Source of the DNA: Lachnospiraceae bacterium
GTDB taxonomy: Bacteria; Bacillota; Clostridia; Lachnospirales; Lachnospiraceae
Length of the DNA: 64,000 nt
Assembly: GCA_022794255.1 (NCBI GenBank)
Contig: JAAWEL010000024.1
Span: 1 to 64,000 of the forward strand
Direction: 5' to 3'
The position numbers and the translations under genes were made by a program. Each line of letters opens with the position of its first letter. Position 1 is the stretch's first letter. This document shows, piece after piece, positions 36,123 through 51,733 of the stretch. The notes beneath the pieces were generated by a model. It did no database searches, had not been told where the DNA came from, and saw only the letters and a program-made list of their open reading frames with translations.

Positions 36123-38804
36123 TCACGGTTTTTCGTGTTCATTGTACTTTATTTTAAACATTTTTTCAAGATTCTCTGGAAAATTTTGAAGAACCGTTAC
36201 CTTTTCTCCTTGTGGAAGCTTCCTCTGCTCTTCCTGTATCATTGCTTCGGTTCTTTTCACATCCTCCCAAAGATCCTTTGCCGACATCAAAAGGCATCCC
36301 GCTCCCCGGATAATAAGCTGTTCTAAGCCATCGGATGTGGCCACGGTCACATGAGCATTTTTCCCCATTTGATAGGCAAACTTTTCAATGTATTGATCTG
36401 CCGTCTCCGCCTCCTTTGTAAAAGCCACATGAATATTGTGATAGTCCATAATATTTCCCTTATTTCCCAATACCTTGTAGGCATCAAACACCACAATCAG
36501 AATACACTGACGAAATGCCTGATAGTTGCATAAAATATCCATCAGATGATATCTGGCCCCGTCAATGGTTTCCTTAGCCAGCTCCCGCAATTCCTCCCAG
36601 GCATAGATAACATTATAACCGTCTATCAGCAAATACTCCTCCTTCTGTTCCCTTTTTTTCTGCTCCTTTCTTTCTTCCGGTGCTTCTGACTGTCTGCTCT
36701 CCTGATACCTTACCTGCCTTGGCCCGTTTTCATAAAAGCGCTTTCTCTTCGGTTCTCCGTAGGTGCGAGCAAAAATTGCTTCCAGTTCCTTATCCTCCAC
36801 CCCAAAAGGGCTTTGAATATCCCTGCCTTTTCTCTCTGTCCTTTTCCCTTTTTCCTCCCTCTGTTTTTCTTCCTCCATAGCTGTGGGAAGGCTTTCCAGA
36901 TGCATATAATCTTTCACCTGATCCCAGGAGACCACAAAGCCTGCCCCATGAGAACAAAATACAGAGCCTGTGGGATTGTCCAAATCAGCTTCCGGATCGT
37001 ATCCAACTGCCTTAACTACTTCTTCCTCATTGTGGCAGGACTCATATCCTTTCAGAGCACAGGTAAACATTCCCCTTCCTCTCGTATAGCGGATCACTTC
37101 CTGCTGATAATCTCTCAGCGTGGAGGCCGGTCCTTTCCCTGACAGAACAGCTATATCTCCTTCAATCTCAGGCGGCTCAAACACTCCCTGCATCCGCTCC
37201 ATGTCAGCCATAGCCCGTCCCACATTTTCTGCCGGCACCCGCAGACAGAATGTATAGTAAGGCTCCAAAAGCATACACCCTGCCTCTCGAAGCCCCTGAC
37301 GCACAGCCCGGTACGTAGCCTGCCTGAAATCTCCTCCCTCTGTGTGCTTAATGTGGGCGCGGCCGGATACCAGCGTAATCTTCACATCCGTAATTTCCCC
37401 GCCAACCAGCACCCCTTTGTGAGGCTTTTCCTCCAGGTGGGTAAGAATCAGGCGCTGCCAGTTTTTGTCCAGAACATCCTCACTGCAGTTTGTTTCTATC
37501 TGGATCCCACTTCCTCTTTCTAAAGGTTCCAATAAAAGGTGAACCTCCGCATAGTGACGTAAAGGCTCAAAATGCCCCACTCCCTCCACAGGTTTTAGAA
37601 TTGTCTCCTTATATACAATATTCCCAGCGCCGAACTCCACACCCACCCCAAATCGTTTTTGGATAAGACTCTTTAATAGATCCATCTGCACCTCACCCAT
37701 AACCTGCGCATGAATTTCCTGTAAGGTCTCATTCCACACGATATGAAGCTGCGGCTCTTCTTCCTCAAGCTGCCGTAAATTTCCCAGCATTCCGGAAATA
37801 TCACTGTCCTTAGGAAGAAGAATCTGGTAAGTCAAAACCGGTTCTAGCACAGGAACCTGCGCCTCCTTCTCTGCACCGATTCCCTGTCCCGGGTAGGTGG
37901 AGACCGGTCCGGTAACTGCACACACCATTCCCGCCTCCACCTGATCTGTCACTTCAAATTTTTCTCCGGAATAGATACGGATCTGATTGATCTTTTCAGC
38001 CTCTGTTCCGGAAAGGATCGCCTTCACCCGCAGACATCCGCTGGTAATCTTCATGTGTGTCAGGCGATTTCCCTGTCCGTCTCTGGATATTTTATAAACT
38101 CTTGCACCGAAATCTTTTTCCTCTTCCCTGCAGGCTTCCATAAACTCCCTTAAACCATCGAGAAATGCATCTACCCCGTCCCCCTTTAAGGCTGAACCAA
38201 AATAGCAGGGAAAGACAGCCCTTTTCTGGATCAATCTTCGGATTTCCTCTTTTTCGATCCTCCCCTGTTCCAGATAGGTTTCCAAAATCTGCTCATCACA
38301 CATGGCCAGGTTTTCCCACAATTCCTTTGTCTCTACACTAAAATCCACACATCCCTCATCTAAGTGCCGCTGCAATTGGGACAGCAGCATCTCCCGGTCT
38401 GTACCATCTTGATCCATCTTATTGACGAAAAGAAAGCACGGGATCTCATATCGTTTTAAAAGGCGCCACAAAGTCTCAGTATGTCCCTGTACTCCATCTG
38501 CCCCGCTGATCACAAGAACTGCATAATCCAGCACCTGCAGGGTTCTCTCCATCTCTGCCGAAAAATCCACATGTCCCGGAGTATCCAACAGCGTTACAGA
38601 AAAATCCCCCAAGGAAAACACTGCCTGTTTAGAAAAAATCGTAATTCCCCGTGCCCGCTCCATCTCATAGTTGTCCAGAAATGTGTCACGAAAATCCACT
38701 CTTCCCATCCTGCGGATCTTCCCTGTCAAATACAGAATCCTCTCCGACAATGTGGTTTTTCCCGCATCCACATGGGCCAATATGCCGATAACCGTTCTTT
38801 TCAT
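36123..38804 (-). CDS. TetM-like ribosomal GTPase fused to a Rae1/YacP-type NYN endoribonuclease
   Basis: About 893 residues. Residues 1-650 form an EF-G/TetM-like translation factor: G1 AHVDAGKTT, RGIT, DTPGHVDF, NKMD, and the TetM C-terminal signature GYDPEADLDNPTGSVFCSHG. A charged linker of about 60 residues follows. Residues from about 720 form a complete NYN domain (LLIDGYNVIYAWEEL, VVFDAYKVLGN, TKEAETADQYIEK, VATSDGLEQ), closely like Bacillus YacP/Rae1, which cuts mRNA in the ribosomal A site. A product that binds the A site and cuts mRNA there is inferred. The ATG at 38804 is the family start; its promoter lies at 38861-38889. Nothing shows that it confers drug resistance. Confidence 0.92.
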   Translation of the reverse strand: MKRTVIGILAHVDAGKTTLSERILYLTGKIRRMGRVDFRDTFLDNYEMERARGITIFSKQAVFSLGDFSVTLLDTPGHVDFSAEMERTLQVLDYAVLVISGADGVQGHTETLWRLLKRYEIPCFLFVNKMDQDGTDREMLLSQLQRHLDEGCVDFSVETKELWENLAMCDEQILETYLEQGRIEKEEIRRLIQKRAVFPCYFGSALKGDGVDAFLDGLREFMEACREEEKDFGARVYKISRDGQGNRLTHMKITSGCLRVKAILSGTEAEKINQIRIYSGEKFEVTDQVEAGMVCAVTGPVSTYPGQGIGAEKEAQVPVLEPVLTYQILLPKDSDISGMLGNLRQLEEEEPQLHIVWNETLQEIHAQVMGEVQMDLLKSLIQKRFGVGVEFGAGNIVYKETILKPVEGVGHFEPLRHYAEVHLLLEPLERGSGIQIETNCSEDVLDKNWQRLILTHLEEKPHKGVLVGGEITDVKITLVSGRAHIKHTEGGDFRQATYRAVRQGLREAGCMLLEPYYTFCLRVPAENVGRAMADMERMQGVFEPPEIEGDIAVLSGKGPASTLRDYQQEVIRYTRGRGMFTCALKGYESCHNEEEVVKAVGYDPEADLDNPTGSVFCSHGAGFVVSWDQVKDYMHLESLPTAMEEEKQREEKGKRTERKGRDIQSPFGVEDKELEAIFARTYGEPKRKRFYENGPRQVRYQESRQSEAPEERKEQKKREQKEEYLLIDGYNVIYAWEELRELAKETIDGARYHLMDILCNYQAFRQCILIVVFDAYKVLGNKGNIMDYHNIHVAFTKEAETADQYIEKFAYQMGKNAHVTVATSDGLEQLIIRGAGCLLMSAKDLWEDVKRTEAMIQEEQRKLPQGEKVTVLQNFPENLEKMFKIKYNEHEKP

Positions 38805-41800
38805 GCCTGCTTTCCCTGCCTTTTGCTGTACAAGTTTTCTTTCCTGCCTTCCTTCCACTTATTATAGCGAATCTTCCACGTTTTGTCACTTGTATTGCAA
38901 AAAAAGCGATTGCTGCTCCAAAAAATGACAGTACAAAAACTACTCCATATATCTTGACAAATGACGCATCCCCTGCTGAGTCCAGTCTCAAAAAGCCTTT
39001 AGGAATCTGGTCTGAAAATTCTCTCCCGGCCAGAGGAATCCCTGTGTCATACCAGGCAGTTACATATCCTGGCTCCCTGGGCGGTTCTAACTGGTCTGTC
39101 CCGGGTGTTCCCGGATCCTTGGGATGTTCCTTTCTTACGTCTTTCTTATGATTTTCAAAGGTCAGTTTTAAAATCTCTGCTTCCTTAGGCATCTGAAATC
39201 TCAAAGGGCCAGCCAGCCGGTATCCATCCGGAGCCTTTGTCTCATAAAGAAAGTATTGCTCCCCTGCCAGAAGTTTTCCTGTGATCTTGTGGCTTTCCTC
39301 TCCGGAAGTCCATTGCTCTAAAATTCTTCCCTGATTATCCCGTATCTCTAAAGCTGCTCCGGATATAGGCTTCCCATTAACAGCATCTGTTTTTATTATT
39401 TCCACCTGGGTTTTTTCATTTTTCATATATACCTTGTCCAGACTTCCATCCAAGCTGACTGTAAAACGAATCTCCTCTGACCAGGCAAATCCATTACATG
39501 GTCTTATTTCCTCAAGAATATAGGTCTCCCCTGCATTTAATACTCCTGCCAATTCATAGGGTTCTTCAGAGGATATCCAGGAAGCAATCTCTTTCCCATC
39601 CAAGGCTTTTATCTGAAGATGATTGCCTGGAAGCTCCTTCTCCCCAGTGATATCTGTCTTGTGGAAAGAAACTCTTGTCTGGCTGTCCGTCATAATCACC
39701 ATCTCTTCTCTGCCGTCCCGTCTGACAGTAAAACGCATATCCTCTGCATAGGCATAGCCAGGTGCAGGTTTTACCTCATGAAGCAGATACTCTTGTCCTG
39801 CCGACAGCTGCTGCCAAAGCTTTATGGGATCTGTTCCTGTAACAAAAATCAACTCCTCCCCTTTCTTATAAGGCTCCTGATCCCAAACTGCCACGGCTGG
39901 TGTTCCATCTAAATTTAAAATCTGCAAAACAGCTCCCTCAACCGGTTTGTTATGAAATCCTTCTGAAAGCTTTTGCACCTGAACCTTTGTTATATCATCC
40001 TTCATAATCACCTGTTCCCGGATTCCTCCCTGGGACAGGGTAAACCAGATTTCTTCCGCCCATGCAAAACCATCACAGGGATGATTCTCCCTAAGACAAT
40101 AGCTTTCTCCTGGCTTTAGCACCCCTTCAATCACATAGGGCTCTTTTCCGGACACCCAGGATCTAATCTCCTTCCCGTCCTTGTCCGTTATACTCATCTC
40201 ACAGCCGAAAAGCTCTTTCTCTCCGGTTATATCGGTCTTAGACAGGCTTACCTTTGTCTTGCGGTCTGGAGCTATTATTCCTCCGACTGCCGCCTTTTCA
40301 TCAATTGTAAACATTATCCGGCTGCTTTCCCAGAAATCACCATCAGAAAAGATCGTATATTCTGTTAAAATATAACTTTCTCCCTTATTGAAAAGCGCTT
40401 TTCCTGAATCAGCTGAAGGAATATGATTCTGAATCGTCTTTTCCTGAATCACTTCATTAGGATAAAAGAAATCAATTTGCGTTCCATCTCTGTGACTTAA
40501 TGACAGAGACGTCCTTATAGCCTGACGTCCTGGAATCAACAGATATTTGTCCTCTCCAAAGGCCAGTATTTCCGTTCTTTTTCCAGTAACAGCTACCGAA
40601 CCATCACTGTAAAGCGTTCTCTCCGTGATCACACAGGGCTCTCCTTCTCTCCATCCGTTTTCCAAACAGATCCGATGTCCATCCCTGTTCCCTGTCCAGC
40701 ACACGGTCCTTCTGCCGGAAACATCTCTTAATTCATACTCGGTCCGAACCGGATAACGCCCCTTTAAGGTCACAGCCTGAATCAAGTCCCTCTTTTCCTC
40801 ATCCTCTGAATCCGAATGGATGGTAATGGTATTTAGCTGGTTGCTGATTCCCACAATCCTTCTTCCATCCAGAGACATGGTAAACAGCACCGGCTCAAAC
40901 AGATCATATCCCAAAGGAGCGGAAAGCTCCTTTAAAAGATAGCTTTTTCCCGCTGTAAGTCCCTCTGTCACATGTTCCTTCTCCCCGGTAGTCCATTGAT
41001 CTTTTGGATCCATTAAATCATACAAAAGCTGCCCCTTCTCATCCCTGCCGGTAATCTCGTAGATCGCCATTTCTGCTCCCACAAGAAGCTCATCCGTTCC
41101 GTGTCCCATTGCATCAAAATCCTTTTTTCCGATGGAGACCCTGGTTTTTCTGTCCGTTACCTGAATCTGCTTTTCTGCCTTATGGCCTGGCTTATAGGAA
41201 CTTCCCTCTGTATCTGGTTCAAATTCCCATGTAAAAATCTGAGTGTTGACAGCATATCCTTCCGGGGGAACAATTTCCCTCAGCTTATAGAGATAAGGTT
41301 CTATCTGTCCGTCCGCCTGCACCTCACCAACCAAAAGATTATTGATCCGAAGCGTCCCTTCATGATCACTGATACATTGTGTCTGTACAGGATTTCTCAT
41401 GTCATCTTTTTTGTATGCAGTAAGCTCAAATACGGCACCAGTGAGAGGATTCCCCTCAAGATCCGTTTTTCTCACCTCCAGACTTCCTTTCACCGGCTGG
41501 TCCAAGACCCGAACCACCCGGATCTCTTCCTGCTGGTGATAATCGATCCGAACCGGTTCCATCAAGGTGTAATACTCAGGGCTTTTTTGTTCCCGCAGCC
41601 AGTAAATCCCATCACTTAGCCTGCCAATTTCGTGAGGCCGTAAATCTCCTTTCTTATATCCTGAAGGAATCCTTCCATTGACAAAATCCTCTTCCGAATA
41701 AATCCCATCCGTTCCGGTAATCCACCATGCTTCCAGATGTTCTTTATCTGCAAGAAAACTTCCATCTTCTCCGGCCCTGAAAAGCTCCATATAAGCTCCG

Positions 41801-44800
41801 GTCAATTCTCCCCTCCGACCTTCTGCCTCCTTGGAAATATACAGCCTTCCTTCCATGTTCTCCACCATATAACGTTGTACATTTCCTGTGTTTTTTGCCA
41901 GAATCACCTGGTCCTCTGCCTTCGCATATCCTTTGGGCACCTGTGTCTCCACCAGTACATAGGCTTCCCCCACCGGAAGATAATCGATACGCCGGACACC
42001 ATCCGTGGTCACATAGGAACATGCATATGGATTTATCTCTGTAAGCTTATGGTAATCAAACTGATATTCAAAGGAATCTTCTCCTGTAACCGTAACGCGG
42101 ATTTTTCTTCCATCATCCATTTGAAATATCAAAACAGCAGCTGTGGGGTGGCGGGAAGGCTCTCCTCCGCTCACAGAGGCATCCAAAGAACTGGAAGAAA
42201 TATGCCTGGCCTGGAAAGTTTTCTTTCCCTGATCCCACAAAACCACGGTTCCATCTTCTGTCCCAAAGTCCTGGTACATGGCCTCAAAAGCCGGGATAAA
42301 GCCAAAGTATTCCTCTGGATCCGAGGTGGTCCAGGTATCTGTTATAGCACCAGAATCGTACACTGGCGCTCCATCCTGACATATCACATTTCCATCTCCA
42401 GATGTAATTGCCTTGTACAGAGTGAATCCGGCCCCAAAAACCGGCTTTCTCTCAGCTTGTTCCATGACATATTTCTCAATTTCTATCTTTGTATGATCGT
42501 TGTATACAGGGATCACCTGCACTTTTTCCGTACTCATTATCTCCACCTCCTGCGGCTTAATGGTGACAAACCCGGACGGTGTGACAAGCTCCTCTAAAAT
42601 ATACGTTCCTGCAGGCAGACCTTCTGTATAAACAGGAATCTCCCCTGTAACCCAGCTGGCCTTTTGCCACTTAAGACTTCCTGCTCTGCTGTCTGTTGAT
42701 TCATAGCTCACCGGTTCCTCCCCTATCTTTTTCAGATAATATCCCTTTTCTAAATCCGGGCTGTACACTCTTTTTGCCGGAAACAATGCCAGCCTGGCTC
42801 CGGAAACCGGGCCATAGGAATAGCTGCCTTTTCCCTCTGTCATTTCTCCTAAATCCCGGGAGGATCCATCTTTCCAGATACCTGATATCTTGATCCTTCG
42901 TGTGTCTGTTCCATCAATTTTAGGAAACTCGACCTTTATCGTCTTGTCCACCATGGAGACAATCTGCATATCTGCAATCTCTCTGACCTGGGTTCCCACA
43001 GGCATGGCCTTCACATATCCAGACGGGTTGTCTAATTCCTCTATTATGTAGCTTCCAGCAGGCACTCGCTTTAAAATATCCGGCTGTCCTGGCATCTCCT
43101 CGGTATCAAAAGGATCATTAGGTGTTTTATCCGAGGTAGTCCAGATATTTTCTAGAATATATCCCTCTCCTTGCCGGTGATAAAGTTTTTTCTGGATCTG
43201 CTGTTCTTTTTTCTCATCCCCATCATACAGCTGACCGTGGGGATTGATATGATAGGCATTGTGATTGTATTTTTCCAAATTGTCCGAATCCTGATATCGG
43301 ACAAAATCCCCGTTTCTGTCGTAAAGCTCTGTTCCCTTGTCATACATCGCTTCACTTCTCTGATAATATTGTGGCAGTCCATAGTTGTCATAGACTGGAT
43401 TTAATTCTCCTGCAAAGCTGCCATTATTTTCATCTGTCAGCACCTCCTGATTCAGATTCTGGCCGTGGCTGTTGGTTGGAAAAGTAGTTTCCTGGTGACT
43501 CTCCCCGCTTCCCTGACTCTCCCAGGTTCCGGTAATGCTTCCTGACTCATTATGCTCATAGGAAGGCAGTTCCTTTTGGGGAATCTCATGGCCGGAATGG
43601 TTAATTACCTGAAGGATGGACTTTTCCTCATAGCCTTCCTGGTTTTCACCTATGGTAGCCACCCGGCATGTGGTGATCTTGTCCCTGGCAATCACATTTC
43701 CATATTCATCTCTGTGGGTGTGAACTGCCCATACCATCACCATCCCCTCTGGGCCTTCCTCTGGCACAACATAAGCCATACCTGTGTAAGGATCCACCAA
43801 ACAATCCCGGTTTCCATTCTTGTCCAGATGGTAGACTAAAGTTTTTTCATCTACCTTCAGAATCTTATCTGCAGAAGAATATCCAAGCTTTGTAAAATCA
43901 CCTCCCACAAACTCTAAAAAGGGGATTCCTCCTTTAAAAGCAAACAGGGAATGATCCGTGTCTGTCCGGCTAAAATTGGCTTTCTCCGACTCTGCCTGCG
44001 CTACAGATACCTTATTGTGATTCTTGTCATAACCATAGACTATACTTCGCCCATCTATATTCCTGGTGACAGTCACTTCCAGACTGTCCAAATCATAAAA
44101 CAAAATATCCGTATCCGGCCGTTCAAGCGTCTCTGCTCCCCACACCGCTCCTGTTTCCTTTACCGGATTTCCAGAAGAATCCACCCCTGTCTGAATTTCC
44201 GTCACATATTCCTCTCCCTTTTCATTTCTTTTCTTCACAAACTCAGTCTTTTTTCCGGCATAGCCTTGTTTCACATACATCCGAATAACATTGTTTGTGG
44301 AGTTTCGCTTTATTTCCAGACCTTCATAGGCATGATCCTGAATGTCACCAGACGCCTTTAACACAATGGCATCAAACAAAACCATCCGGGCACCTGCCAC
44401 ATAAGTATTGGCATCATCTGCTGTTTCCAGCTTTCTGGTTACATACCCATATCCGGCAAAAACCGCACCCTCATAGGCAATTTCCACCAGTTCTCCTGCA
44501 GCTTTTCTGGATGCCAGATATTCCAGTGTGCCCTTTCTCCATCCATATCCCAGATAACACCCATTTTCATAAGCATATTCATAGTCCGGATCCCCTCCGA
44601 TCTCCACAAGGCTTCCGTCAACCCTGCCGCTTACTTTATAAGTGACCGTTTTATCCCCAGTGGTGTTGGCTGCCCTGGCGCTGGACTCTTTAAGTTTCTC
44701 CACAGTCAGCTTAATCGGCACGTTCTCCACATTGACTCTTGCCAGTTTCCCCCTGTCCTGTGGCTTATTTTTATTGGCTGTCTGTTCCATGGCATCAATC

Positions 44801-47800
44801 TCATAAATGGCTGCCAGAACCCGACTGTCTTTGTTTCCCTCCTTATAATAAGTAACCTTATCTGAATAAATCTCCAATGCTATCGGTTTACTTCTCACAT
44901 ATCCAGAGGGAGCTTTCTCCTCACAGATCACATAAGCTCCTGCTCCCAGAGGCTGTGGTGTTTCCAGATATCCTGCTGTCTGAAGCTGCCAGGCCATTGT
45001 CTTTTCTTCCAGCTCCTCCTTCATCTGCTCATCCAGCACTGTGGAAAAGGAAGAAAAAGCCACTGTCTGCTGTCCTCTTCCATCTCCTAGTATGATTTTC
45101 TCACTTTCCTCACACATGGGCGTTCCGGCCGGAACCACACCTGTATAAAGGTTTCCAGGGCCTTGGTTCTTTCCCAACAAACGGTCTAAAAGAGAAAGCT
45201 TTCTGGCCATGGGGCGGATGTCCAAAGCCCCCATAGACTCTAAAAATCCTCTGGTACCAAAGATGGTTGTATCCTTCTCATAAAAGCATACCCTTCCGCT
45301 GCCATCCTCAGACGCCTCCCTCTTAGCTCCATAGACAGCAAAAACAGCACTGTCATGAAGAATATTTTCATGGGTTTCCCCATCTAACTTTTCCAGACGC
45401 AGTCTGGCGGTAAAGAATCGGTTTCGGAATTTTGCACATGCAAAACCCGTATAATCACTTTCTCCGGTAGCCTCCTCCTTTCCTCCGGACACAAACGTCC
45501 CCTGATTTCTGTCCGGGCCGAGAATACTCCATGGCACCAGCATAGAAGCATACTGTTTATCACAGGCTGTCTGCATCCCCTGCATTACAGGGACCTGATC
45601 CCGATACCCTGTTCCAGGTACATTATCCTCGGTGGAGGTTCCACCAAAAAATGGTACATTGTCCATAACTCCCCTGTGCTCTGACACAGAACTATATCGA
45701 TACTGGCCGGCGATCCCCTCTCTCCCAGACTGACCCTCCGTAAGATAAAAATCCACTTTGGCTCCCTCTCTGTCATCCTGCTGGTTATAGTAATTTTTAT
45801 ACGGATTGTAGGTACTTTGGGTAAGGGCAAAACGATTGCCTTTTCCCAGAACAGGTGGGACTCCGTTGTCAAGAAGGTCCACATCCATGCCATATTTGTA
45901 AATCTCAAAATCCCCATAATGGCTGTGGGCAAAGATTTGATGATTTTCCTGATTAAATCGAATCCGGTATTTTCTCTCCATCTCCGGTCCGGCCATGGAG
46001 GCATCATAGCAATAATAATTATTGGTCCGCTCCGGTGATGCAAGAAAGCCTTCCGTCCCCTCATACACCGATGGAAGCACTACCTCTTTCGGCCTGTCAA
46101 TCTGATAATGTTTATTCTTAAAATCCTTTTGATTCCGGCCATACTCTGCCCCTGCATACTTTGGCTGCTGCTCCACTACCACATAGGTTCCATACGGCAG
46201 ATAGGAGGACAACCCACAATATCCTTTTGATTCATCGCCTTTTTCTGCCAGCACATCCGCTGACAAGGTGGTCCGGTCATGATCCTTTCCCCCAGATGCT
46301 TCATCCCATTGAATTCCGTAGATTTCGTCCAGATCATAGGCAAAGAAGGGCACCAGATAATTTTCCGCCTTTATAATCGCTTCTCTTAAGGCATGGTCAT
46401 AGATTTCATCCGGATAGGAAACCTTTTTATCCTTTGCTTCTTTTTCTGTTTCATTTTCCTCTACCGGTTTTACCAGCTTTCTCACTTCATCCTCCAGGTA
46501 CCAGTCGATTGCAAACTGCCGTACCTGATCCGATACTTTTACATTTTCTATAGAGTCCTTTGTCCTGTTTGCTTCATTGCCCACAGGCTGCCAGCTGGTA
46601 TACGTAGGCGCCCCGTCATCCCATTTGTCTGCATTTGCCACATAAATGGCCTGAAAAAACTTATCATAATTCGGTACTTTTACAGTCCTCATTTTCTGAC
46701 CATCCTCTGTCAGTCTTTCCTCTGTCTCCAAAACCGCTGTATAGCCTTTCCTTGCCTCTTCATGGATCTTTCCATCTGAATATCCGTAAAGGGCCTCATT
46801 TGCCACTATCGCATCCCGGGAGTCTGCATATAAGGGATCGGTTTTGTGCGTTACCTTTGTATAGATTTTCCGCACCAGACCGGGAAAAGCACGATTTTCG
46901 GCCAGCACCTCTTCCTCCCCTAAATCCTGCCCCTGCCGGTTCTGCCAGACAATTTTTCCTTTCTCAGTACGGTACAACCGGGAGAGATTGGATCTTAAAT
47001 ATATTTTAAAGCGGAAATTATCCATCCTTGTGGCTGCTTCCTTTTCCTGAACTTCCTCCGAAAATCCTCCAAACAGCCAGGTAAACCAATCTTTATGAAC
47101 CTTTCCATAGGAATTGGTATGGTTGTAAGAGGTTTTCTCAATATCCTTAAACACCTCCACTCTCTGAACAATGGCTCGTTCCCAGACCTCCACCGGAGCC
47201 TTTCTTGTACCTCCATCCTCATAGATGCAATCCTGCCCGGGATAGGCCAGCGTTACCTGACGCATATAGGTCTTTGTCAAATTCATGGATGGGACTGCTG
47301 TCACCACAGGGCTCCTCCCCTCCCCTGTAAAACGGTTTCCATAGCGAATGGTCATTAAAAGCTTCTCTTTTTCCAATATCTGATTTTCAGGAACATGAAT
47401 TTTCCAGGTCCGGGACAAAGGATCGTATGCCTCCTTAAGCTTTTCATAATCTATAGTCTCTCTGACCTGATAGCCCTCCCGGTCCACGTATCGGATCTTC
47501 TCCTTTTGATAAATCCCTCCCTTCTCATCCCTGAGAAGCTCTCCCTCTCCATAGACCCAAAAAGATTTGAATTTTTCTGCACTAACCCAAGACAAAGCAG
47601 ATAAATCCTGATAAGGATCCAGCTTTTCTTCTGCCGGTTTTTCATTGGGAACCCGCACCCACCGGAAAAGATGATTTCCCGCTCCCCGGTCCTCAACCGG
47701 TATGGCAGATAATGGATAGCCGCGATACAGATAGCCCTCTGCCCCATCCTGAAATTTCACAGAATATTTTACATAAAAAGTATCATCAGAGGCACTGTAT

Positions 47801-50800
47801 ACAACCGGCTGTGCCTGTCCTTTCTCCAAAAAAGAATACCGAAGCACCCCATAATTTTCTCCGTTTTTCCTTATCACTCGCTCAAAAAATGCTCCATTAA
47901 AGGCAGGACACTTTTCATCTTCAAAAAAGTTATACATTTTTTCCGCCCATTGGCTTTTGTCCTCCCCCAGCTCTATCAGAAAATAGGGAGCATCTGTTCC
48001 GGCCCACTCCATGCCAATAGACAAAAATGCCTGATTGCACATTTCCGCAAATTTTTCCTCACCTGTTTCCCCGCCTGTCAGCTCTGGTATATACTGGGTA
48101 TCAAAAGCCGGAATAGCCCCTTTTTGTCCTGTCAGATAACGTTTCTCAGGAGAAACCACAAATTCCTTTGTATGTTCTGCCAAAACTGTTTCTCCGTTGG
48201 GAAGATCAATCCATTCCCCGGCTACTGCCTCCACGCTTTTCCCTTCAATCATCACCTGTGTCCCGGCAACCGCCTCCACCGGCTCATAGTAAGTCTCCGG
48301 CTCCCTCCATTGACAGTATTCCTCCCGCTTCCCCTTTTTTGTGATCCAGAAGGATGGCATGGACCGTGGATCTATATTTTTTATGGAAATGTCCCATCCG
48401 TATTTGGTATCGCTGCCAGAAAGGGTGATCTCAGTCACCATCTCCTCTTCCCCGGTGTCCTCCATTCTACAGATATTTCCCTCTGTTTTTTCCACCAGCA
48501 CATTACCTCCGGACTCTATGCTTCCTCCTGCCAAAAAGCTGTTTCGGTTAGAAACCTCTGCCTCCACCCCATATACGGACAGCTCATACCCTTCCGAGCG
48601 GGTCAGCTCCTGCACATAGTAGGATCCTAAAAGCAATGGTCTGCCAATCCAGCAGTTTCCATTTTTCGACTGATTATCTGATAAAGGATAATACCATCTT
48701 TCCTGTCCGTTTCCATCAGGGTTGCTGGTATACTCATGAACCGTCCTTATGTATTTGTTTGTTGGTCCCGAAAAACCGGTTCTTGCCATGGCTCCCAGGC
48801 TGTAGTCATAAAAAGTTCCCGGGGCTTCTGTAATCGCCATAAAAGAGGCATCCCCATTTTTGTCAGTAGTCGCCACTGCCACTAAGTTTCCCTTCTCAAA
48901 AACCACCCCGGTCTTTCCGTCCGGATGGATCAAATCCGCTGCAGCATATAGCCCGTAGACAGCTCCTTCCAATGTTCCATCCCCCTGCGTATCACCGTAA
49001 GAATCATAGTTTTTTCCTTCCCCCTTCTTTAAGAGAAGATCCCTCTTATTTATGTGGATCTCTCCTTCTGTCCGGTGGTCATAAACCTCAAAGCTCCAGT
49101 CTGCCCCCTGTCGTCCGGAATAATCTGGATCTGCCGGGACAATCAAAGCCAGGGGCGAGGGCTGAAGGCTGACCTCTCTCCCCGCAGCCAGGGGCTTTGA
49201 TCTGGGAGAAGAAAAAAGGGGGATTGTCTGTCTTAAATTCCGGATACTCCCGGAAAAAAGGCGGGTTCCATTGGACGGACTTGCCATTTCAGAGCCTTCA
49301 AAAGCCTTCCATTCTTCCTCTTCATCTAAAATCCATATCTCATCCAGATTCACTTCTTCTCCGGAAATCACCTCTGTTTTTATAGGATAATTGCTGTTGC
49401 TCCCGGTAGCCAGAGGAACGATTACTGTTTTCTGTATTTCTGTTTCCTCCGGGCCCTCTGTTTCCTCTGCATCTGACATAGTTGCCATTTTGCTATTTTC
49501 TGATTGCTTTTCAAATGTATCCTCTCCTTTTTCTATGATTTTATATGGAATTTCAAATAGTGTTGCTGTTTCTGCCAACCGGACTTCCCCTGCCATCTCA
49601 TCCCCTTTCTTCCTTTCTTCTGCCATCAGCTCATCTTCTTTCTGGCTCTCCTTTTCACCCTCTGTTTCTCTTTCACTGACACACTCTCCTTCCAGAAAAC
49701 CCTGCATCAAATCAATACCAGTCTCTGATATCCCTTTCCATCCATACTCCTCCCTCTGATTCTTTCCCTGCAAATCGTAATATTGACTGGAATGTATGGT
49801 TATGGTCTCAATGGGAACGGTATCCCTGTGAACCCCATCAAAAATATTTTCAAAAGGCTGATGAACCAAATCCTGATTATGGACAATATAACCCTTTCTT
49901 GCTGACAACTCCCGGGCTGAATAATCATAGGTGAGAGACACAAAAGCCTCATAGTGCTTATCTCTGTCCGCTTCCAAAAGCTCTGCCGCCCCCGCATCCA
50001 GGGAATGATAAAAGCCACCGGCACTTACCAGATTCTCACAAACTTCAATCTCTCTTTCGTATTCTTCTACAGCCTCCTCATCTTCCGGCTCCGGCTCCGG
50101 ATGTCCTCCGCAATACCCTTTCGTGTAAGAATAATACTTAATATCCCGGTGGGCGCGGACACCAGACGGCTGCAGCTCCCCAACCCCATAAGATCCTGCC
50201 TCAACCAGCCATCCGTCCGGACCAGTCACCTCCTGATCCTTCTGACAGGGATCTGGATCTCCATTGTCTCCGTAAGGGCTGTCCCATCCTCTCCAGCGAA
50301 TAAACTGGCTTCCCTTATCATTGTCCCAGTTGTCATCCTCCAGCACGCTCTCCTCTAGCTGGCTGTCATCAAAAGCCTCCAGAATATCAAACCAGACATT
50401 TTCCAAAGGTTTTCCTGTTTCTGAATCCAGCTTTCTCAGATTTACCACATAGTCTGCCTGCCATTTTTCTGTATGCTTGTACCGCATCACCGAAGAACCG
50501 CCATACCCTGGAGCATCCTCCCCCGGGGAAGTTCCCACCAGAATTTTAAGTCCATCCTTCAAATTAGAGATCAGATTTCCCTGGGCAAAGGTCAGACTCC
50601 ATCTGTTTCCCAGCTTTACCGGCATGTGGAGCTCCCGGATACTCTCTCTTCCAATCCATTTCCGGATAATTCCATTGGCATTTTCCAGATTGATCTCCGC
50701 CACATTGCCTCCCTCTGGTATCTGACCGGTCTGAGAGCGGAAATCCAGTCCGGTTTCTGTCATCTCATAAGTCCAGTCCCCATAGGGTAAGATCGAGGCT

Positions 50801-51687
50801 GCCCCAAAAAATTCCCTTGTCTCCGGGGTAAGGGGATAGCTGGCATGATAGAAACCATCTTCTCCCAGGGATATTACCGGGCGAAACACATACCCGGTAT
50901 CAGAACATTCCACACAATCAGCAGCCAGCTTTGCCGTATTCCATACAGACCGGAAGGTTCTCTCCATATCTCTCATCATGTCCTGGTATACCTGAGTGCT
51001 TCCTAACCCGGACGGGTTGTACCGTTGTGCAATCTGAGTGGTATGCTGTTGGTATATGCCCCAGTCATGTCCATATTCTCCGGTAAATTTTGCCTCTTCA
51101 GACAAGGTGCAAAAACTCTGGCAAAGATAATAATTTGCCGTGTTGATCACCGGATCCGAATTCACAGTTCCCTGGTAGGCCTCATGATTTGCCGCGTATG
51201 CCATGAGAAGAAAATTCAGTCTCCGGCAATATTCATCCGCTGTATTGTTCACAATAAAGGGCGGCAGATTCTGAAGGGTATAAGGCTCTTTCTTTATGTA
51301 CCATATGGCCGTGGTCTCCATGGTGGTATTGGGATTTTCCGCCAGTTCCCGGCTATGGGAAATACAGTACATATTCCGGTACTGATAGTCCTTCCACTTT
51401 CCTCCGGGACTGACACTGGTTTGCTGCTTGTAGATCACAATTCCCGGCTGGGGATAGGTAGGTGTCATATGCCCGATAAAATCAGTCCTCTCCAATCCAG
51501 CCCCGTCCTGCGCTGCCAGCTGATCCCATAAAGCCACCAATTCCTCACTGTAGCTAATCTCTCCTCCGCCAAAAGACACTGCTCCATACGCTCTGTCTGT
51601 AAAATGCAGATAAGGCAGAAAGGTCATGAAAAATACCATTGCTGCCACAATCCCTGCATATCTCCGCCTTATTTCTCTCCCCTTCAT
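38686..51687 (-). CDS. Giant membrane-anchored Cna-B/SpaA-type surface protein
   Basis: About 4,333 residues. A signal peptide (IVAAMVFFMTFLPYLHFTDRAYG, then SFGGG) leads to an N-terminal domain of about 360 residues. Many Cna-B/SpaA-type beta-sandwich modules follow, each opening like VNLRKLDSETGKPLENV or VSFHKTDITGEKELPGN and closing with a GETYILEE-type glutamate motif; these typically form Lys-Asn isopeptide bonds. An acidic E/K-rich linker lies near residues 680-800. One membrane segment (about 4,243-4,270, IYGVVFVLSFFGAAIAFFAI) anchors it; no LPXTG motif is present. I chose the ATG at 51687 (GGGAGG eight bases upstream). The frame then runs on for about 62 residues over the next gene's promoter and start. 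An adhesive role is inferred from the architecture. Confidence 0.88.
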   Translation of the reverse strand: MKGREIRRRYAGIVAAMVFFMTFLPYLHFTDRAYGAVSFGGGEISYSEELVALWDQLAAQDGAGLERTDFIGHMTPTYPQPGIVIYKQQTSVSPGGKWKDYQYRNMYCISHSRELAENPNTTMETTAIWYIKKEPYTLQNLPPFIVNNTADEYCRRLNFLLMAYAANHEAYQGTVNSDPVINTANYYLCQSFCTLSEEAKFTGEYGHDWGIYQQHTTQIAQRYNPSGLGSTQVYQDMMRDMERTFRSVWNTAKLAADCVECSDTGYVFRPVISLGEDGFYHASYPLTPETREFFGAASILPYGDWTYEMTETGLDFRSQTGQIPEGGNVAEINLENANGIIRKWIGRESIRELHMPVKLGNRWSLTFAQGNLISNLKDGLKILVGTSPGEDAPGYGGSSVMRYKHTEKWQADYVVNLRKLDSETGKPLENVWFDILEAFDDSQLEESVLEDDNWDNDKGSQFIRWRGWDSPYGDNGDPDPCQKDQEVTGPDGWLVEAGSYGVGELQPSGVRAHRDIKYYSYTKGYCGGHPEPEPEDEEAVEEYEREIEVCENLVSAGGFYHSLDAGAAELLEADRDKHYEAFVSLTYDYSARELSARKGYIVHNQDLVHQPFENIFDGVHRDTVPIETITIHSSQYYDLQGKNQREEYGWKGISETGIDLMQGFLEGECVSERETEGEKESQKEDELMAEERKKGDEMAGEVRLAETATLFEIPYKIIEKGEDTFEKQSENSKMATMSDAEETEGPEETEIQKTVIVPLATGSNSNYPIKTEVISGEEVNLDEIWILDEEEEWKAFEGSEMASPSNGTRLFSGSIRNLRQTIPLFSSPRSKPLAAGREVSLQPSPLALIVPADPDYSGRQGADWSFEVYDHRTEGEIHINKRDLLLKKGEGKNYDSYGDTQGDGTLEGAVYGLYAAADLIHPDGKTGVVFEKGNLVAVATTDKNGDASFMAITEAPGTFYDYSLGAMARTGFSGPTNKYIRTVHEYTSNPDGNGQERWYYPLSDNQSKNGNCWIGRPLLLGSYYVQELTRSEGYELSVYGVEAEVSNRNSFLAGGSIESGGNVLVEKTEGNICRMEDTGEEEMVTEITLSGSDTKYGWDISIKNIDPRSMPSFWITKKGKREEYCQWREPETYYEPVEAVAGTQVMIEGKSVEAVAGEWIDLPNGETVLAEHTKEFVVSPEKRYLTGQKGAIPAFDTQYIPELTGGETGEEKFAEMCNQAFLSIGMEWAGTDAPYFLIELGEDKSQWAEKMYNFFEDEKCPAFNGAFFERVIRKNGENYGVLRYSFLEKGQAQPVVYSASDDTFYVKYSVKFQDGAEGYLYRGYPLSAIPVEDRGAGNHLFRWVRVPNEKPAEEKLDPYQDLSALSWVSAEKFKSFWVYGEGELLRDEKGGIYQKEKIRYVDREGYQVRETIDYEKLKEAYDPLSRTWKIHVPENQILEKEKLLMTIRYGNRFTGEGRSPVVTAVPSMNLTKTYMRQVTLAYPGQDCIYEDGGTRKAPVEVWERAIVQRVEVFKDIEKTSYNHTNSYGKVHKDWFTWLFGGFSEEVQEKEAATRMDNFRFKIYLRSNLSRLYRTEKGKIVWQNRQGQDLGEEEVLAENRAFPGLVRKIYTKVTHKTDPLYADSRDAIVANEALYGYSDGKIHEEARKGYTAVLETEERLTEDGQKMRTVKVPNYDKFFQAIYVANADKWDDGAPTYTSWQPVGNEANRTKDSIENVKVSDQVRQFAIDWYLEDEVRKLVKPVEENETEKEAKDKKVSYPDEIYDHALREAIIKAENYLVPFFAYDLDEIYGIQWDEASGGKDHDRTTLSADVLAEKGDESKGYCGLSSYLPYGTYVVVEQQPKYAGAEYGRNQKDFKNKHYQIDRPKEVVLPSVYEGTEGFLASPERTNNYYCYDASMAGPEMERKYRIRFNQENHQIFAHSHYGDFEIYKYGMDVDLLDNGVPPVLGKGNRFALTQSTYNPYKNYYNQQDDREGAKVDFYLTEGQSGREGIAGQYRYSSVSEHRGVMDNVPFFGGTSTEDNVPGTGYRDQVPVMQGMQTACDKQYASMLVPWSILGPDRNQGTFVSGGKEEATGESDYTGFACAKFRNRFFTARLRLEKLDGETHENILHDSAVFAVYGAKREASEDGSGRVCFYEKDTTIFGTRGFLESMGALDIRPMARKLSLLDRLLGKNQGPGNLYTGVVPAGTPMCEESEKIILGDGRGQQTVAFSSFSTVLDEQMKEELEEKTMAWQLQTAGYLETPQPLGAGAYVICEEKAPSGYVRSKPIALEIYSDKVTYYKEGNKDSRVLAAIYEIDAMEQTANKNKPQDRGKLARVNVENVPIKLTVEKLKESSARAANTTGDKTVTYKVSGRVDGSLVEIGGDPDYEYAYENGCYLGYGWRKGTLEYLASRKAAGELVEIAYEGAVFAGYGYVTRKLETADDANTYVAGARMVLFDAIVLKASGDIQDHAYEGLEIKRNSTNNVIRMYVKQGYAGKKTEFVKKRNEKGEEYVTEIQTGVDSSGNPVKETGAVWGAETLERPDTDILFYDLDSLEVTVTRNIDGRSIVYGYDKNHNKVSVAQAESEKANFSRTDTDHSLFAFKGGIPFLEFVGGDFTKLGYSSADKILKVDEKTLVYHLDKNGNRDCLVDPYTGMAYVVPEEGPEGMVMVWAVHTHRDEYGNVIARDKITTCRVATIGENQEGYEEKSILQVINHSGHEIPQKELPSYEHNESGSITGTWESQGSGESHQETTFPTNSHGQNLNQEVLTDENNGSFAGELNPVYDNYGLPQYYQRSEAMYDKGTELYDRNGDFVRYQDSDNLEKYNHNAYHINPHGQLYDGDEKKEQQIQKKLYHRQGEGYILENIWTTSDKTPNDPFDTEEMPGQPDILKRVPAGSYIIEELDNPSGYVKAMPVGTQVREIADMQIVSMVDKTIKVEFPKIDGTDTRRIKISGIWKDGSSRDLGEMTEGKGSYSYGPVSGARLALFPAKRVYSPDLEKGYYLKKIGEEPVSYESTDSRAGSLKWQKASWVTGEIPVYTEGLPAGTYILEELVTPSGFVTIKPQEVEIMSTEKVQVIPVYNDHTKIEIEKYVMEQAERKPVFGAGFTLYKAITSGDGNVICQDGAPVYDSGAITDTWTTSDPEEYFGFIPAFEAMYQDFGTEDGTVVLWDQGKKTFQARHISSSSLDASVSGGEPSRHPTAAVLIFQMDDGRKIRVTVTGEDSFEYQFDYHKLTEINPYACSYVTTDGVRRIDYLPVGEAYVLVETQVPKGYAKAEDQVILAKNTGNVQRYMVENMEGRLYISKEAEGRRGELTGAYMELFRAGEDGSFLADKEHLEAWWITGTDGIYSEEDFVNGRIPSGYKKGDLRPHEIGRLSDGIYWLREQKSPEYYTLMEPVRIDYHQQEEIRVVRVLDQPVKGSLEVRKTDLEGNPLTGAVFELTAYKKDDMRNPVQTQCISDHEGTLRINNLLVGEVQADGQIEPYLYKLREIVPPEGYAVNTQIFTWEFEPDTEGSSYKPGHKAEKQIQVTDRKTRVSIGKKDFDAMGHGTDELLVGAEMAIYEITGRDEKGQLLYDLMDPKDQWTTGEKEHVTEGLTAGKSYLLKELSAPLGYDLFEPVLFTMSLDGRRIVGISNQLNTITIHSDSEDEEKRDLIQAVTLKGRYPVRTEYELRDVSGRRTVCWTGNRDGHRICLENGWREGEPCVITERTLYSDGSVAVTGKRTEILAFGEDKYLLIPGRQAIRTSLSLSHRDGTQIDFFYPNEVIQEKTIQNHIPSADSGKALFNKGESYILTEYTIFSDGDFWESSRIMFTIDEKAAVGGIIAPDRKTKVSLSKTDITGEKELFGCEMSITDKDGKEIRSWVSGKEPYVIEGVLKPGESYCLRENHPCDGFAWAEEIWFTLSQGGIREQVIMKDDITKVQVQKLSEGFHNKPVEGAVLQILNLDGTPAVAVWDQEPYKKGEELIFVTGTDPIKLWQQLSAGQEYLLHEVKPAPGYAYAEDMRFTVRRDGREEMVIMTDSQTRVSFHKTDITGEKELPGNHLQIKALDGKEIASWISSEEPYELAGVLNAGETYILEEIRPCNGFAWSEEIRFTVSLDGSLDKVYMKNEKTQVEIIKTDAVNGKPISGAALEIRDNQGRILEQWTSGEESHKITGKLLAGEQYFLYETKAPDGYRLAGPLRFQMPKEAEILKLTFENHKKDVRKEHPKDPGTPGTDQLEPPREPGYVTAWYDTGIPLAGREFSDQIPKGFLRLDSAGDASFVKIYGVVFVLSFFGAAIAFFAIQVTKRGRFAIISGRKAGKKTCTAKGRESRHEKNGYRHIGPCGCGKNHIVGEDSVFDREDPQDGKSGFS
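38861..38889 (-). promoter_or_regulatory. Sigma-A-type promoter for the TetM-NYN gene, inside the giant ORF
   Basis: Minus-strand GTGACA (38889-38884), 17-base spacer, TATAAT (38866-38861), about 50 bases before the ATG at 38804. It lies within the reading frame of the giant surface protein and argues against the GTG at 38858 as the start. Confidence 0.75.
38899..38905. repeat. A7/T7 homopolymer run at the end of the giant gene
   Basis: Seven A on the plus strand (T7 in the giant gene), in the last codons of its membrane segment. With six T the frame would stop at once after AFLQYK, leaving a short basic cytoplasmic tail. Confidence 0.9.
39140..40257 (-). repeat. C-terminal array of four Cna-B/SpaA modules, two nearly matching
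   Basis: Four consecutive modules in the giant protein. Modules at 40257-39991 and 39678-39412 are each exactly 89 codons and share VS-KTDITGEKEL, DGKEI-SW and GFAW-EEI. They alternate with two different modules (39990-39679 and 39411 to about 39140), which suggests duplication of a two-module unit. Confidence 0.8.
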
Positions 51688-51733
51688 CTCCACTGCCTCC
51701 CTTTCTCTTATGTGTTCTTGGGATGTACTCTCC

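Follow-up and report, generated by a model that had tools for sequence, protein, structure and literature searches.

The window analysed here is a stretch of 64,000 nucleotides from a Lachnospiraceae bacterium (positions 1 to 64,000 of contig JAAWEL010000024.1, assembly GCA_022794255.1). On its minus strand, at 36123 to 38804 (stop included), lies a single intact open frame of 893 amino acids (aa) with its ATG at 38804, the extent of which is also backed by full-length relatives; the longest alternative start would give 911 aa. The frame encodes, in order, a GTPase of the elongation factor G (EF-G)/Tet type, an 86-residue linker predicted to be disordered, and a complete NYN domain of the YacP/Rae1 family. 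The original prediction, which had read one frame joining an EF-G/TetM-type GTPase to a complete NYN domain, was therefore right in both its coordinates and its domain assignment. In Pfam searches, GTP_EFTU (PF00009) matched residues 5 to 222 with 174.6 bits, EFG_III residues 321 to 392 with 27.5 bits (cut-off, 27), EFG_IV (PF03764) residues 395 to 508 with 67 bits, and EFG_C (PF00679) residues 512 to 593 with 61.7 bits, while domain II (EF-G_D2) stayed under its cut-off of 27 at 22.1 bits. With five G motifs and domains III to V recognized, and domain II below the cut-off, the protein belongs to the translational GTPases of the EF-G/EF2 family. The C-terminal part matched NYN_YacP (PF05991) over residues 725 to 870 with 163.8 bits, far above the gathering cut-off of 24.6, and this score places it in the Rae1/YacP family.

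Relatives of the gene were collected from several genome samples, and their loci held 145 fused frames; frames of 780 aa or more were taken as fused. The GTPase alignment was made from such frames that covered the GTPase and were non-identical (115), plus the query, giving 116 rows and 115 distinct proteins, as the window's own gene was present twice. The G domain (residues 5 to 222; 38139 to 38792, minus strand, as are all features of the gene) carries the P-loop, the switch I motif RGIT, DTPGH, NKMD and the G5 motif. K16, T17, D74 to H78, K129 and D131 were found in 115/115 distinct fused proteins, T55 in 114/115 and N128 in 110/115. EF-G-type domains IV and V (residues 395 to 593) are encoded at 37026 to 37622 and are followed by a C-terminal extension of the GTPase (residues 590 to 637; 36894 to 37037), in which Y602, S614, F616, G620 and W627 were invariant in the 115 distinct fused proteins. 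This extension was common to fused and unfused members of the group, and the two rows compared that resemble ribosomal protection proteins (RPPs) were gapped from about residue 605.

Among solved structures, TetO and TetM were the most similar to the GTPase part by sequence, with EF-G also among its relatives. The likeness to TetM/TetO (NF012153, 3J9Y, 4V6V) lies in the order of the GTPase domains, in the intact GTP motifs and in the identity of about 31 to 36% to RPP-like genes of the class genomes, whose matches ended at residues 589 to 605. However, the GTPase scored 441.2 bits with the NCBIfam model tet_protect (NF012153), under the cut-off of 775, and it differs from TetM/TetO in the tip of domain IV, in having its own C-terminal extension and in the attached nuclease. 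EF-G shares the domain layout and a tip histidine, but the score with the EF-G model TIGR00484 was 291.6 bits against a cut-off of 659.4. The tip motif H484-x-K486-H487-T488 (37341 to 37355), delimited by conservation and by alignments with TetM and EF-G, was highly conserved in the distinct fused proteins (H484 in 113/115, K486 in 110/115, H487 and T488 in 115/115), and each of the four residues was present in 24/24 unfused orthologues. H484 aligned with the tip histidine of EF-G (one EF-G compared), a residue that we take to be important in that factor. The aligned tip of TetM reads Y507-S508-P509-V510-S; the S508-P509-V510 triplet of a TetM-type domain IV loop III was absent here, and H487 stood at the place of V510 in all 115 distinct fused proteins. 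This triplet is not strictly diagnostic, since excerpts of PMC4750697 describe a TetM S508A/P509A/V510A mutant as active, so that TetM tolerates alanines at these positions. The earlier label "TetM-like" is loose, given the score under the cut-off of the resistance proteins and the different domain IV tip.

The NYN nuclease domain (residues 725 to 870; 36195 to 36632) had the Bacillus subtilis YacP/Rae1 structures 5MQ9/5MQ8 as its closest solved relatives (E = 6.5e-25). Four acidic residues align with those of Rae1 and span 36330 to 36623, namely, D728 (36621 to 36623), D774 (36483 to 36485), D803 (36396 to 36398), and D825 (36330 to 36332); presumably they are the catalytic acids of NYN/PIN nucleases. 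In an alignment of rows with a near-complete NYN match (133 including the query; 131 distinct fused domains), each of the four was present in 131/131 distinct fused and in 32/32 standalone NYN domains. The YacP/Rae1 features with four acids claimed in the original prediction were hence borne out, as was the conservation of these acids in orthologues, on which it had made its claim depend. Judging from the alignments, both enzyme parts look alive, with nearly invariant GTP-binding motifs on one side and conserved nuclease acids on the other. As a separate observation, the tail residues 883 to 886 (36147 to 36158) form an L-E-x-R motif that hardly varies among standalone YacP proteins (R886 in 31/32), whereas in the fusions it was weaker: R886 was found in 54 of the 133 fused rows, 37 of which had gaps there; it looks as if this motif had been relaxed after the fusion.

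The two enzyme parts are joined by a poorly conserved segment (residues 638 to 723; 36636 to 36893), with a mean majority fraction of 0.22, the GTPase reaching 0.69 and the NYN domain 0.65. It had been proposed as a possible failing of the fusion that the linker might be too short for the active site to reach mRNA. This was not the case: across the 116 rows its length was 56 to 204 residues (median, 80), and by charge-hydropathy 113/116 linkers were predicted to be unfolded, compared to 0/116 for the GTPase and NYN parts. A stretched chain of 56 residues reaches some 20 nm, which is sufficient to bridge the distance between the factor site and the A site of the ribosome. Within the linker, a short motif (residues 669 to 683; 36756 to 36800) of about the form E[LIV]xxI[FLMY]x[RQKN][TEA] was present in 92/116 linkers against a mean of 0.15 in shuffled ones, the pattern having been written post hoc, after the alignment was seen. 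In the distinct fused proteins, I677 was found in 109/115, E673 in 100/115 and T681 in 84/115. The conservation of this motif suggests that the linker is more than a passive tether.

An assembly join, named in the original prediction as a way for it to fail, and a chance frame were both ruled out by full-length fused frames in genomes of the family, class and phylum and in named isolates, including Faecalicatena contorta, Mediterraneibacter massiliensis and Butyrivibrio hungatei. In the scan of named genomes, the best 80 of 116 relatives showed 48 to 71% identity, and nearly all aligned over almost the whole length; the exceptions were L099, which is truncated by the end of its contig, and L032, whose C terminus is broken. 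The sample of the window's own family comprised 299 genomes, of which 264 had a YacP domain and 261 a GTPase match at E = 1e-40 or better, two of the latter (G068 and G213) being RPP-like. Among the matches listed (189 family genomes), 171 had a frame of 780 aa or longer; of the remaining 18, 12 had YacP in frames of 174 to 260 aa and 6 had contig edges or broken or shorter frames. The domain search that had been proposed as a check also spoke for conservation at the class level, where 100 of the 291 genomes, from 25 families, carried the fusion. In total, 123 class genomes had a GTPase orthologue, and besides the 100 fused genes there were 17 separate ones (10 in genomes with YacP, 7 in genomes without detectable YacP) and 6 that were cut or broken. 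In the phylum sample, 24/348 genomes had the GTPase orthologue, 19 of them fused and 5 separate, and a standalone YacP was found in 4 of these 5.

Two individual cases were also recorded in this survey. In G140 and G530 the GTPase gene was split over two frames (L124, 5791 to 8510, and L199), which could reflect sequencing error, decay or frameshifting. In genus g327, one genome (G356; locus L258) showed no GTPase match at E = 1e-40 and carried YacP only as a separate protein of 168 aa, the four other sampled members being fused; it is possible that a free Rae1 has replaced the fusion there. A second true YacP in this genus was ruled out, as the matches in question had 21 bits and were below the cut-off.

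To place the fusion in its evolutionary context, trees were computed from 63 of the 116 fused GTPase rows and 68 of the 133 fused NYN rows. All 63 fused rows in the GTPase tree fell into one clade (Shimodaira-Hasegawa-like approximate likelihood ratio test [SH-aLRT] support, 99), nested among unfused genes when rooted on the RPP-like rows; the unfused gene of G202 adjoined the fused clade (support, 86), and the other unfused genes lay outside. In the NYN tree, a single fused clade was not rejected (approximately unbiased test, p-AU 0.965). Both trees fit one fusion event.

No YacP besides the fused copy was found in the window's genome, which is 86.8% complete, and 258 of the 264 YacP-bearing family genomes had a single YacP match, six having a second one. 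Standalone yacP adjoined rlmB in 9 of the 12 loci read. We fetched the rlmB locus from 20 of 24 fused genomes searched (tblastn with a single reference, E = 1e-6); rlmB and mrnC were present in 20/20, cysS in 19 and sigH in 15, and by this search no yacP was found at the rlmB locus in any of the 20. The space between rlmB and sigH, by match boundaries, was less than 350 bases in 14/15 genomes, and therefore a yacP of about 510 bases cannot fit. The fused gene hence lies outside the cysS-mrnC-rlmB-yacP-sigH group, which is a feature of context and does not define the family. With no other YacP found in the window's genome and none seen beside rlmB in the fused genomes checked, we read the fusion as a relocated Rae1 whose old copy has been lost. 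The candidate uncharacterized system of the original prediction is therefore not an addition to the cell, but the one YacP that this genome was seen to carry.

The fused nuclease belongs to the same NYN family (PF05991) as B. subtilis Rae1/YacP (5MQ8/5MQ9), with the four acids aligned and usually one copy per genome. It differs in that B. subtilis Rae1 is a free protein, as are its standalone relatives of 168 to 260 aa, whereas in the fusion the NYN domain is C-terminal on a GTPase and not beside rlmB. It is likely that the fusion has the same role as B. subtilis Rae1. The architecture itself is not new, as excerpts of Atkinson 2015 (PMC4342817) report Tet proteins with a YacP-like NYN domain in ten Clostridiales species as a possible resistance mechanism. 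That report took these proteins, which share the architecture, for Tet resistance proteins, whereas here they are interpreted as a Rae1 relocated to a separate subgroup of GTPases and are seen over a far broader range. The original prediction, which knew of no functional description, thus missed that the architecture was already in print, although the excerpts report it without a test. In the parts of the open-licence literature that were covered, a scope outside of which most subscription papers lie, no functional test of the fusion was met.

The names given to such proteins vary. A fused protein of Agathobacter rectalis (WP_306784676.1; locus L225, 1628 to 4429) is annotated as "TetM/TetW/TetO/TetS family tetracycline resistance ribosomal protection protein," which is probably a misnaming of a Rae1 fusion, and a fused protein of Monoglobus (WP_320690501.1) is annotated as "translation factor GTPase family protein." Such fusions can therefore be named as tetracycline resistance genes (one case seen), and this could inflate resistance counts for gut commensals.

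As to function, we put at about even the chances that the fusion is the Rae1 of these bacteria, moved onto a GTPase, and that it works by a hand-over in the A site from the GTPase to a tethered nuclease that cuts messenger RNA (mRNA). Excerpts of PMC8161019 place the action of a TetM-type domain IV in the A site, and those of PMC6613710 describe Rae1 as an endoribonuclease of the ribosomal A site that may gain more access when ribosomes stall. Because a TetM-type domain IV and Rae1 cannot share the A site at once, a hand-over is favored. A single event in an ancestor shared by many Clostridia-like lineages would have joined rae1/yacP to the end of a gene for a GTPase related to the tetracycline RPPs, and the old copy beside rlmB would have been lost. 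In the protein so formed, the GTPase may bind a ribosome whose A site is empty or blocked, and domain IV would probe or clear that site. GTP hydrolysis would then release the GTPase, and the nuclease, kept on the same ribosome by the disordered linker, could enter the A site and cut the mRNA. Finally, transfer-messenger RNA (tmRNA), which is present in the window's own genome, would rescue the truncated complex; cleavage by Rae1-like enzymes is described in excerpts of PMC12320835 as freeing the A site for tmRNA. We infer the ribosome binding, the order of the steps and the site of cleavage. The earlier proposal of a self-delivering A-site nuclease finds partial support: the fusion, the two conserved active sites, the broad conservation and the reach of the linker were borne out, and the best solved relatives of both parts are A-site factors. 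It needs to be amended in that delivery must be sequential or take place on another ribosome. With rather less confidence, and somewhat short of even chances, we propose a more specific version in which GTP hydrolysis on a stalled ribosome would gate the entry of the tethered Rae1 into the A site that domain IV has vacated, making the protein a GTP-gated, self-delivering cutter; the linker motif would serve as a second docking point, and this would be the usual form of Rae1 in a large part of the gut Clostridia. Overall, a role in quality control seems more likely for the fusion than one in antibiotic resistance. If this is true, a large group of gut bacteria has as its commonest Rae1 a form other than that of B. 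subtilis, ribosome stalling is tied to mRNA destruction inside one protein, and the question of how Rae1 chooses its ribosomes becomes directly testable.

Three other explanations were weighed. The GTPase could serve as a tether only, keeping Rae1 on ribosomes or fixing the ratio of the two factors, with hydrolysis and cleavage uncoupled. This would agree with the long linker predicted to be unfolded, with the occurrence of the GTPase unfused and also without YacP, and with YacP lacking the GTPase in 74 of the 189 YacP-bearing class genomes. However, one fusion has been kept in 25 families with both centers conserved and no free yacP at the old site, which hints at a benefit in having the two parts joined, and the conserved linker motif likewise points to more than a passive tether; we regard this explanation as rather unlikely. 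Alternatively, the nuclease could trim or cut ribosomal RNA (rRNA) or transfer RNA (tRNA), with the GTPase providing access to the ribosome. Standalone yacP sits with mrnC-like (mini-RNase III) and rlmB frames, and we take mrnC and rlmB to be rRNA-maturation genes. The idea of an "rRNA RNase" is also proposed in excerpts of Atkinson 2015 (PMC4342817). The NYN domain, however, is close to that of B. subtilis Rae1, in the excerpts cited above an A-site mRNA endonuclease, and an rRNA or tRNA target thus appears improbable.

That the protein confers resistance to tetracycline (or another drug), with an RNase as an add-on, was put forward in the same excerpts of Atkinson 2015. The Tet proteins are indeed the nearest named families, and the fused A. 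rectalis protein is so annotated on a record labelled as a plasmid. Against this stand the 441 bits compared to the tet_protect cut-off of 775 and the replacement of the TetM S508-P509-V510 triplet, which by itself does not exclude resistance, given the active alanine mutant in the excerpts of PMC4750697. Furthermore, no mobile or resistance neighbor family was common to the 71 loci compared, and at least six fused genomes (G207, G332, G345, G446, G539, and G574) carry a separate RPP-like gene. We therefore hold a resistance function to be very improbable.

Several observations weigh against the reading of the fusion as a relocated Rae1 that works by A-site hand-over. YacP was not detectable in 35/299 family and 102/291 class genomes, and is therefore dispensable. 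Of the 101 class genomes without detectable YacP, 7 carry the GTPase, which must therefore also serve some purpose by itself (a further genome, G426, whose GTPase is cut by a contig end, was excluded from this set). In the class, a separate GTPase was found in 10/84 unfused genomes with YacP and in 7/101 without it (Fisher's exact test, P = 0.31). In the free tree, the long-branched NYN row L197 did not group with the other fused rows, and fused proteins conserved the C-terminal tail of the NYN domain less well than standalone ones did. Two fused genes were also found on records labelled as plasmids, of 252 and 518 kb. Within the family, among the matches listed, a separate GTPase did occur in 8/13 genomes with YacP and in 0/35 without (P = 3e-6), a test that ignores kinship; in these counts, the YacP frame of G128 was unseen, G068 had only an RPP-like gene, the RPP-like match of G213, a genome with no YacP, was left uncounted, and the GTPase matches of G135 and G229 were weak or split. 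As this association was seen in the family and absent in the class, we dropped it as proof of a shared pathway.

The genomic setting of the fusion was also compared between genomes. In 14 of the 20 fused genomes with a fetched rlmB locus, the fusion lay on the same contig as rlmB, of 2.2 to 6.9 Mb, and is therefore chromosomal in these. No neighbor family occurred in more than 22 of the loci of 71 relatives (plus the window). The neighbors seen by eye were large transporter and sensor families, with a pyrF-like gene in 7 loci, and among the families present in at least 6 loci, examined by eye, no common mobile, resistance or defense neighbor was found. A search of PADLOC-DB gave 0 families at E = 0.01. 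With no PADLOC match and no common defense neighbor, a defense system was ruled out.

YacP-like matches were present in 23 plasmid records, of which three were examined, and in 12 phage records, of which one was. The Clostridioides difficile "plasmid" record NZ_CP149721.1 (L227; 97 kb) carries cysS, rlmB, NYN, sigH, tuf and rplK frames and is a piece of chromosome; the same YacP-like match occurred in eleven further C. difficile plasmid records. The other two plasmid records examined, of 252 and 518 kb, each carry a fused gene. A mobile resistance gene was rejected as a candidate. The phage record MT835514.1 (L228), an unverified "Bacteriophage sp.," holds an 890-aa frame with a GTPase start and an NYN match, adjoined by glutamyl-tRNA synthetase-like and glycerol kinase-like frames, and by eye is probably a bacterial contig.

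Finally, next to the fusion gene in the window lies a giant frame of 4335 aa (38686 to 51693, minus strand), by eye a repeat-rich surface protein. It stops 119 bases within the fusion gene, in another frame and past its own apparent membrane anchor; the two genes may overlap in an unusual way, or else the 4335-aa frame is broken close to its end.

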